A DNA stretch of 64,000 nucleotides from the NCBI RefSeq assembly GCF_013407165.1, contig NZ_CP026994.1, positions 1 through 64,000 of the forward strand. Reading direction: 5' to 3'. Within the stretch, counting starts at the first letter, position 1, and every line of letters starts with the position of its first letter. The notes beneath the pieces are model-generated. The model saw nothing but the letters and a program-made list of their open reading frames with translations. It was not told where the DNA came from and did no database searches. The stretch comes from Nitrosopumilus oxyclinae (GTDB lineage Archaea; Thermoproteota; Nitrososphaeria; Nitrososphaerales; Nitrosopumilaceae). This document shows, piece by piece, positions 19,543-22,656 of the stretch. A program made the translations under genes and the position numbers.

Positions 19543-20292
19543 TCATTTAATTGATTCTCCTCCATCTACAGTCAATATTGCACCTGTTGTCCATGATGCA
19601 TCATCTGAGGCAAAATACAAAACTGCTTTTCCAATTTCATCTGGTTGTCCAATTCTACCGATAGGATGTTCACTATTCATGAATTCCTTGTCTTTTTCAG
19701 TCTTCAAAAATGGTTTTGTCATATCTGTGTCTACAACTCCTGGACAAATACAATTTACTCTGATCTTGTCTTTAGAATATTCTAATGCCCAACATTTTGT
19801 TAATAAAATCAATGCAGCTTTTGATGCAGAATACGCATCTGCATTAAATCCTTGATATGCCTTTATTCCAGCATCTGATGAAATGTTAATTATTGAACCA
19901 GATGTTTTCTGTAAATGAGGAATTGCTTCCTTGGTAAATCTATACTGTCCTGTGAGATTTACATCTAATACCTCATTCCATTCATCCTCATCAATTTCAT
20001 GTAATTGTTTTATCTTAGGAAAGATTCCAGCATTATTTACAAGAATATCTAATTTGCCAAATTTTTCAATTATTTTATTTACAACATTTTTTACATCTTT
20101 TGAATTTCTAATATTAGCTGCAATTCCTATTGCGTTAGGAATCTCTTTTACCGCATTTTCCAATCGGTCTTTATCTTTTGCAGTAATTGCTACAGTGGCA
20201 CCATTTTCTGATAGAATTTTTGCAGTTGCTAATCCAATTCCACGACTTCCACCAGTTACTAGAGCAATCTTACCAGTTAATCTCAACAACAT
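19543..20292 (-). CDS. Short-chain dehydrogenase/reductase (FabG-like)
   Basis: This classical SDR of 249 residues has the cofactor motif TGGSRGIGLA near the N-terminus, NNAG at about 88 and the catalytic Ser-Tyr-Lys in ISSDAG and YSASKAA. CPGVVDTDM and a C-terminal DGGESIK complete the 3-oxoacyl-ACP-reductase-like pattern. The substrate is uncertain. Archaea lack a standard fatty acid synthase, so polyhydroxyalkanoate or other ketoreductions are alternatives. Confidence 0.85.
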   Translation of the reverse strand: MLLRLTGKIALVTGGSRGIGLATAKILSENGATVAITAKDKDRLENAVKEIPNAIGIAANIRNSKDVKNVVNKIIEKFGKLDILVNNAGIFPKIKQLHEIDEDEWNEVLDVNLTGQYRFTKEAIPHLQKTSGSIINISSDAGIKAYQGFNADAYSASKAALILLTKCWALEYSKDKIRVNCICPGVVDTDMTKPFLKTEKDKEFMNSEHPIGRIGQPDEIGKAVLYFASDDASWTTGAILTVDGGESIK

Positions 20293-20388: not shown

Positions 20389-20398
20389 TTTTAAATAC
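20389..20398 (+). promoter_or_regulatory. TATA box for the candidate RNA gene
   Basis: The string ttttaaatac lies about 30 bases upstream of 20422, where the first helix of the candidate RNA begins. That spacing fits archaeal initiation at the first structured base. The match and distance are visible; promoter activity is inferred. Confidence 0.5.
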
Positions 20399-20421
20399 TT
20401 AAAGTTCCTATTATAATTAAT

Positions 20422-20550
20422 GTCGAAAGATATAATTCCTATCGACTAAATCAGCGTAGCCCCGCAGAACGAAAAAAGGGTTCAGTTGTTTAACAACTGA
20501 CAACGAGAGGAAATCTCTCATTGTTCTGTAACTAAGGGGTATACGCCTTT
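20422..20550 (+). ncRNA. Candidate structured non-coding RNA with three-way junction
   Basis: In an AT-rich gap without an open frame, this stretch is GC-richer and folds cleanly by eye. A 5' hairpin (GTCGA 20422-20426 with TCGAC 20442-20446) is followed by a long closing stem: GCGTA 20454-20458 with TACGC 20542-20546 and CCCC 20460-20463 with GGGG 20536-20539. Inside it CAGAAC 20465-20470 pairs GTTCTG 20523-20528. Two hairpins lie within: TCAGTTG 20482-20488 with CAACTGA 20494-20500, and GAGAG 20505-20509 with CTCTC 20515-20519. A T-rich run follows at 20548-20559. A TATA box lies at the right distance upstream. It does not look like tRNA, 5S, SRP, RNase P or a C/D-box RNA. The function is unknown. 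Confidence 0.7.
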
Positions 20551-20994
20551 TTAATTTTCTAAGATATCTACAGATACAGAACCAATAGTTTCTCCGTTTG
20601 GATTAATTGTAATTGAAACTTTTTGCATTTCTGAATTAATAATATTTTTCTGTCCATCATAATTCCATGTAAAATATTCAGAGATTCCAGTTTGATGTTG
20701 TGTCCCTATCAACTGAAAGTCTTCAGAATAAGAAAATGTATCTCCATTTAATGTGATTGATAAAATTTTTGGACTACTGCCATTTGGAACAAATCTGAAA
20801 TAATATTCCCCTTTCTCAAGAATAAATTCCTCAGTATATACGCCATTAACGTAAAGATTAGGATCAGCAAGGGTTACATGAAATAAAGTATTTTTTTTAT
20901 CATTTGTTTCATTTGATGGAGAACCTACTACAATAATTGCTAATATAACTAATATCGGAATTATGATGATTTTTTTATTCAATAAAATATGCAT
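20551..20994 (-). CDS. Membrane-anchored or secreted hypothetical protein
   Basis: The 147-residue protein starts with a basic, very hydrophobic segment (KKIIIIPILVILAIIVVGS), which is a signal anchor or an uncleaved membrane helix. An external beta-rich domain of about 115 residues follows (FILEKGEYYFRFVPNG), resembling small immunoglobulin-like or carbohydrate-binding folds in pattern only. Its stop codon abuts the 3' end of the candidate RNA coming from the other strand. Confidence 0.6.
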   Translation of the reverse strand: MHILLNKKIIIIPILVILAIIVVGSPSNETNDKKNTLFHVTLADPNLYVNGVYTEEFILEKGEYYFRFVPNGSSPKILSITLNGDTFSYSEDFQLIGTQHQTGISEYFTWNYDGQKNIINSEMQKVSITINPNGETIGSVSVDILEN

Positions 20995-22188: not shown

Positions 22189-22656
22189 TTATTCATTAAA
22201 TGCATCTCTAGAATCTTTAATTTTTTTGACTCTATTTCCTTCTTCATCAATTACTCTGTCAACACCAGAAAGTCTGTCTCTTAATGTATTGATGATAGAA
22301 CCTACTTCATCTGCCTCATTTTCGACTTTTTGTCTCTTACTGGCAAGTTCTGAAATACCTCTGTTTTCTTCCTCAATGTATTCACTAACCTTCTGAAGCT
22401 TTTCTTTCAAATTTTTAATATCAACTGATTCTTCTTCAATATCTTTTTCAAGTAAAGTTCTCTTATCTTTTAGATTTTTAATCATTAAACCAACGTAATC
22501 TATTGCTTCTTCTAATTTTGCCCGTTTACCCATTAATTCCCCAATTCCAATTTGACTGGTTGATTCTATTGTGGAATTGGATTCTTCAGTATTATTATTG
22601 TCAGTTCTTTCTTCTACCATTTCTCCACCCTCTTCATTTTTGAATTTATCAAACAT
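22189..22656 (-). CDS. Coiled-coil protein of unknown function
   Basis: A 155-residue acidic protein: a Thr/Ser/Asn-rich N-terminus (about 1-35) and then a heptad-patterned coiled coil to the end (EEESVDIKNLKEKLQKVSEY). There is an internal repeat of roughly 40 residues: AxxVGxxIxxLxDKRTLLEKDIEEE appears in variant form near IINTLRDRLSGVDRVIDEE. It converges with cdvB, ten bases between stops, so a division role is conceivable but unproven. Confidence 0.6.
   Translation of the reverse strand: MFDKFKNEEGGEMVEERTDNNNTEESNSTIESTSQIGIGELMGKRAKLEEAIDYVGLMIKNLKDKRTLLEKDIEEESVDIKNLKEKLQKVSEYIEEENRGISELASKRQKVENEADEVGSIINTLRDRLSGVDRVIDEEGNRVKKIKDSRDAFNE

Follow-up and report, generated by a model that had tools for sequence, protein, structure and literature searches.

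Positions 20420-20555 on the plus strand of the window, a whole stretch of 64,000 nucleotides of the Nitrosopumilus oxyclinae genome, very probably correspond to a structured RNA gene that also carries a conserved micro-ORF. As far as can be judged from sequence comparison, the gene looks like a member of a new family, in which a leaderless frame of 8-9 codons is followed, 3-5 nucleotides further on, by a three-way junction and then by a T-rich terminator. The parts of the window copy, called copy A, are as follows.

20390..20397, plus strand: TATA box TTTAAATA, 30 nt from box to ATG
20420-20555, plus strand: RNA gene copy A, about 135 nt, stand-alone
20420..20449, plus strand: leaderless micro-ORF, ATG plus 8 codons plus TAA (MSKDIIPID), a conserved frame
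20422..20446, plus strand: 5′ hairpin GUCGA...UCGAC, overlapping the micro-ORF, from the MFE fold
20454..20463, plus strand: P1 closing stem, 5′ strand (GCGUA, bulged G, CCCC), from covariation
20464..20470, plus strand: P2 inner stem, 5′ strand (GCAGAAC), from covariation
20482..20500, plus strand: P3 hairpin UCAGUUGU-UUA-ACAACUGA, from the fold in relatives and double changes
20505..20519, plus strand: P4 hairpin GAGAG-GAAAU-CUCUC (GAGAGGNAAUCUCUC), from the covariation alignment
20523..20529, plus strand: P2 3′ strand (GUUCUGU), pairing with 20464-20470
20536..20546, plus strand: P1 3′ strand (GGGG, UA, UACGC), pairing with 20454-20463
20547..20555, plus strand: T-rich end (CTTTTTAAT), a probable terminator from its sequence, overlapping the stop codon of the convergent gene

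Folding of the plus strand gave a minimum free energy of -44.2 kcal/mol as compared to -28.1 ± 3.7 kcal/mol for dinucleotide shuffles (z = -4.35), and none of 200 shuffles folded as well. An earlier note on this DNA had likewise judged the pairing far better than expected of A/T-rich spacer DNA. The minus strand of the locus folds about equally well, as expected since the region is rich in inverted repeats; the promoter and the T run, which the earlier note had placed at the end of the block, both sit on the plus strand. In the window copy, the three-way junction consists of a bulged P1 of 9 bp, a P2 of 7 bp and two hairpins of 8 and 5 bp. The closing stem is as previously described, with GCGUA/UACGC and CCCC/GGGG separated by the bulge. 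The inner stem had been given 6 bp and has 7 (GCAGAAC/GUUCUGU). Two hairpins of 7 and 5 bp had been announced; both are present and the smaller one has the announced length, but the other is of 8 bp.

Covariation was measured on 65 sequences and 24 pairs, with 500 shuffles and with controls in which the structure was slid by 1-3 columns. Within the junction, 97.1% of the cells were paired in the 65 relatives as compared to 92.9% after shuffling, and the slid structures left only 31-55% of the cells paired. Changes on both sides affected 13 of the 24 pairs (5.7 ± 1.3 in shuffles), the covariation score was 0.188 against 0.112, and none of the 500 shuffles matched the data at any measure. P4 was the best-conserved element, with 99.4% of its cells paired. 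The corresponding value for P2 was 98.7%, with both-side changes in four of its seven pairs, and P3 folds in nearly all relatives with double changes among its pairs. P1 becomes a near-continuous helix of about 10 pairs in distant genera; in L067, GCGUGGUCCC can be seen by eye to pair with GGGGAUCACGC. Pair-breaking changes were looked for in the relatives, and none were found except in three decaying copies (L097, L166, L167). Overall, the alignment data show that a structured RNA gene with the three-way junction proposed earlier is supported by covariation.

The 5′ hairpin behaves differently from the junction: hairpins of differing sequence occur in most lineages (mean z of -1.5 over 19 clusters), and the RNAalifold consensus does not include this element. 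Its earlier description thus holds for the window copy and for most lineages but not for the consensus, and the hairpin coincides with the micro-ORF. A pseudoknot joining the A-rich junction (AAAAAGGC) to the U-rich 3′ tail was also considered. It had a compensatory look in a few lineages; its mean score was 4.77 as compared to 4.64 ± 0.14 with shuffled partners, 63 of 300 of which did as well, and it was dropped because its pairing overall equalled that of shuffled partners.

The TATA box, which the earlier note had described as lying at the right distance, is indeed found at 20390-20397, and the distance from box to start is 28-30 nt in all 125 parsed copies. The comparison set comprised 427 genes, each at least 100 codons long, taken from 464 kb of the genome (the window and L191-L210). 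TATA-like boxes of these protein genes peak 29-30 nt before the ATG. The two peak positions hold 19 near-matches, as compared to about two at any other position; an SD-like site was found in only 24 of the 427 genes. With such a peak and so few SD-like sites, many genes of this genome seem to be leaderless. Should the TATA box of the RNA gene work as it does in protein genes, transcription would begin at the A of the micro-ORF AUG or beside it, and this is the predicted start. Leaderless mRNAs are a main class in related TACK archaea, and the small subunit binds them with the help of their 5′ end (PMC11698992). The RNA would resemble these archaeal leaderless mRNAs by an AUG at its predicted 5′ end and by its protein-gene TATA spacing, and it departs from them by a frame of only 8-9 codons, an unselected peptide and a conserved RNA domain after the frame (PMC11698992).

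The absence of any protein frame from the block, asserted in the earlier note, is contradicted by the frame at 20420-20449 (ATG TCG AAA GAT ATA ATT CCT ATC GAC TAA), which is conserved across the family. Among the first 93 sequences, the start codon is ATG in 89, TTG in 2, GTG in 1 and another codon in 1; a stop is present in all of them and comes after 8 or 9 codons in 92. Using a parser that favoured 8-9-codon frames, 125 of the 131 unique copies were parsed and a frame of that length was found in 121, with the stop mostly 3-5 nt 5′ of P1. The ten other copies comprise six unparsed ones, one with 12 codons, two with 10 and a decaying frameshifted one. As for the unparsed six, L086 is truncated, L087 has ACT in place of ATG, and L080, L160, L175 and L181 have a good frame by inspection. 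The spacing from stop to P1 is not absolute, since the stop lies at or within P1 in the divergent copies L169, L176 and L335. Among named records chosen by the P4/P2 pattern, a set overlapping the first one in part, all 77 copies whose 5′ side is complete have 8-9 codons plus a stop. The frame was also present in eight of nine newly found divergent copies.

The peptide is not kept in the same way. Single-base differences between A-type copies are nonsynonymous in 33 cases and synonymous in 5, and the mean entropy is 0.60 bits at the first codon position, 0.74 at the second and 0.51 at the third; third positions thus show no excess of variation, and these counts give no sign of purifying selection on the peptide. 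Divergent copies with the same frame length encode unrelated peptides (MVKRVNYNK, MQKDAKSTA, MLVQCRMMD, MFVKPLRMA, MAEKSRQMT and others). In the sequences compared, start, frame, length and stop are conserved and the peptide is unconstrained. That the former are kept but not the peptide suggests that translation itself, rather than the peptide, matters.

The micropeptide could nevertheless be the product, as a signalling, modified or active peptide of 8-9 residues, with the structure only stabilizing or terminating its mRNA. This idea would fit the presence of a genuine leaderless frame in nearly every copy, a last residue that is mostly D or E, and a pheromone-like variation of the peptides between paralogues and lineages. 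The seven-codon mccA gene, for its part, yields an active peptide, microcin C. We consider this explanation rather unlikely: 33 of the 38 single-base differences between A-type copies alter the peptide while third positions are not the most variable, the same RNA carries wholly unrelated peptides, and no common processing or export gene was found beside the copies in the small neighbourhoods available. Moreover, an intricate junction with covarying pairs is more than a mere terminator would require. The likeness to mccA lies in the extreme shortness of the gene and in the RNA hairpin that comes after it; the mccA peptide is however the product and is adjoined by modification genes, and neither feature is seen for the archaeal RNA.

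Conversely, the AUG and the stop could be RNA motifs that ribosomes never read, in a purely structural non-coding RNA. A hairpin does occur in the same stretch in most lineages, so that the 5′ stretch is constrained twice, by the hairpin and by the frame, and no downstream gene is found at the main loci. Several observations make this explanation unlikely. Where the ATG is replaced, it is almost always by GTG or TTG, and TAA, TAG and TGA replace one another: on a tree of the parsed copies only, the stop switches type at least 23 times, always to another stop. Insertions and deletions inside the frame are of three bases, except in decaying copies. Because the parser favoured 8-9-codon frames, the frame was submitted to a separate null test. 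When the 5′ stretches were shuffled, the first stop in frame came to lie beside P1 in about 8% of cases per cluster, whereas it was observed there in 16 of the 19 clusters (binomial P about 1e-15); the three failing clusters correspond to a parsing error seen by eye (L078), a lost stop (L091) and the frameshifted decaying copy (L166). The start is also spaced from the TATA box as in protein genes. With a leaderless 8-9-codon frame at a fixed position almost universal in the family, the RNA would not be purely non-coding.

The genes next to copy A in the window are the following.

19543-20292: short-chain dehydrogenase gene, divergent from copy A, with a Pfam match
20551-20994, minus strand: gene of a 147-aa protein, convergent with copy A, without Pfam match

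This gene order is kept in most lineages, and the overlap of the T-rich end with the convergent gene recurs in most syntenic copies. Across much of the family the 147-aa gene remains beside copy A, and the stop codon of this gene overlaps the 3′ end of the RNA. More generally, the neighbours of the RNA copies are convergent, divergent or distant. Classical attenuators are built in this way, with a short leader ORF and then a structure, and a co-oriented gene does lie 60-350 nt downstream of some divergent copies (L089, L090, L091, L093, L180). It is however improbable that the RNA acts in cis as the leader (attenuator or riboswitch) of a gene downstream. In nearly all loci, the gene that follows copy A is convergent with it, and copy B is likewise convergent with a gene read from its sequence as PurP-like; no co-oriented gene is found close downstream at these two main syntenic copies, the next one in the window beginning 500 nt from copy A; and the co-oriented genes of the other copies do not belong to one family.

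A divergent standard RNA (RNase P, SRP, H/ACA or C/D guide RNA, tmRNA), with which the size and compact fold are compatible, is hardly credible, as no Rfam 15 family reached its gathering score in the window or in nine divergent relatives, the best match to the locus being a weak, chance one to an H/ACA snoRNA on the other strand (E = 3), as the RNase P RNA of the genome lies elsewhere (993137-993415, 187 bits, RF00373), as ARAGORN found no tRNA or tmRNA in the window, and as inspection of the alignments revealed no conserved C and D boxes and no ACA box kept at 3 nt from the 3′ end. The micro-ORF moreover lies outside the closing stem, unlike the internal tag ORF of tmRNA. The earlier view of a stand-alone structured RNA with a promoter and a terminator-like end, distinct from the standard archaeal RNAs, is thus upheld by covariation, conservation, synteny and the lack of an Rfam match. 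No description of such a structured RNA in Nitrosopumilus was found in the open literature searched, though unpublished or closed-access sightings are possible; an ocean small-RNA survey, reportedly by Shi et al. in 2009, may have sequenced it. Nor do we know of any kind of stand-alone RNA whose micro-ORF is obligatory whatever peptide it encodes. For these reasons, no Rfam family, no relative found described in the open literature searched and no such kind known, the RNA would form a new class.

Within the genus Nitrosopumilus, the RNA is present in 56 of 56 good genomes, and in 89 of 95 when all genomes are counted. Using covariance model R1 and a DNA search, it was found in 18 of the 22 sampled genera of the family, usually with 2-3 copies per genome. 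Genera g5, g8, g11 and g13 (G098, G119, G101, G104, G122, G106) gave no copy. Outside the family, model R2 recovered none from 26 genomes representing 16 further families of the order, searches under stricter filters agreed with this, and viral contigs had none either. When named genomes were scanned with the P4 hairpin as search pattern, nearly all matches belonged to Nitrosopumilus, to Nitrosarchaeum, or to other Nitrosopumilaceae or unclassified Thaumarchaeota, the exceptions being two bins labelled Nitrososphaeraceae. With 18 of 22 genera of the family and none of the other families, the RNA appears to be lineage-specific and widely retained. It is not essential everywhere, as it was not found in four of the 22 genera, and it can be lost, as the very small g5 genomes (0.8 Mb) gave no copy. 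Further copies of note are listed below.

872535-872702, minus strand: second copy of the own genome, from a search of the genome
521097-521220, plus strand: third copy of the own genome (G000:C1; L150 898-1021), divergent, 43.6 bits
L097 854-980, in G005: decaying A copy, fold broken, frame still open
L166 936-1062, in G035: decaying A copy, frame shifted, fold broken
L167 910-1047, in G040: decaying A copy, fold broken, frame still open

The third paralogue keeps P1, a P4-like hairpin and a nine-codon frame (MVKRVNYNK) without the usual P2. In genus g15, tandem copies lie about 300 bp apart (L075 593-716 and 902-1024). G006, another Nitrosopumilus genome, has copies at 22398-22534 and 690171-690304. 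The three genomes with a decaying A copy still hold another good copy, indicating that the copies are partly redundant.

We tentatively favor a regulatory RNA whose function would be coupled to its translation, a mechanism that is possible though far from assured. RNA polymerase would start at or next to the AUG. A ribosome would load on this 5′ AUG, melt the 5′ hairpin and terminate once its leading edge has reached into the foot of P1, knowing that a terminating ribosome covers about 9-12 nt past the stop. How the junction domain folds, how stable it is or how active it is would thereby depend on translation, and the RNA would act in trans as a regulator that reports translation or is protected by it. 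More doubtfully, the act of translation and not the peptide might be what is selected, the stand-alone RNA acting as a ribosome sensor, decoy or holding RNA, with ribosomes that start at its 5′ end and stop or park at the foot of the fold. The SD-like GAGG of the P4 hairpin could take part in such a sensor or decoy role, the resemblance being weak. Shine-Dalgarno mimicry by the P4 loop (GAGG and AUC, close to GGAGGUGAUC) mostly follows from the pairing of the hairpin, in a genome with SD-like sites in 24 of 427 genes, and is kept as speculation only.

Known systems share some of these features. Tan1 of marine group II Euryarchaeota is likewise an abundant stand-alone RNA of marine archaea, of unknown function and with a complex predicted fold, but it is 229 nt long, belongs to another phylum and has no demonstrated sequence relation to the present RNA (PMC5069720). 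The bacterial dual-function small RNAs SgrS/SgrT and RNAIII/delta-haemolysin also combine a stand-alone structured RNA with a short frame. Their peptide is however longer and functional, whereas the archaeal RNA has 7-8 unconserved residues after the Met, in a leaderless frame that ends just before the fold. The trp, cat and erm leader-peptide attenuators have a short ORF directly 5′ of a structure that the ribosome can open; unlike them, the main archaeal copies have no downstream gene, no regulatory codon run and no conserved stalling peptide.

Ammonia-oxidizing archaea are among the most abundant cells of the ocean, and to our knowledge very little is known of their regulatory RNAs. An RNA family in which the position, length and stop of a frame are kept while the peptide drifts would be direct comparative evidence of selection on translation itself. 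Such genes escape both annotation based on long ORFs and RNA searches that assume no ORF. With only about 135 nt, this RNA would offer a small testable system of ribosome-coupled RNA function in archaea whose mRNAs are mostly leaderless.
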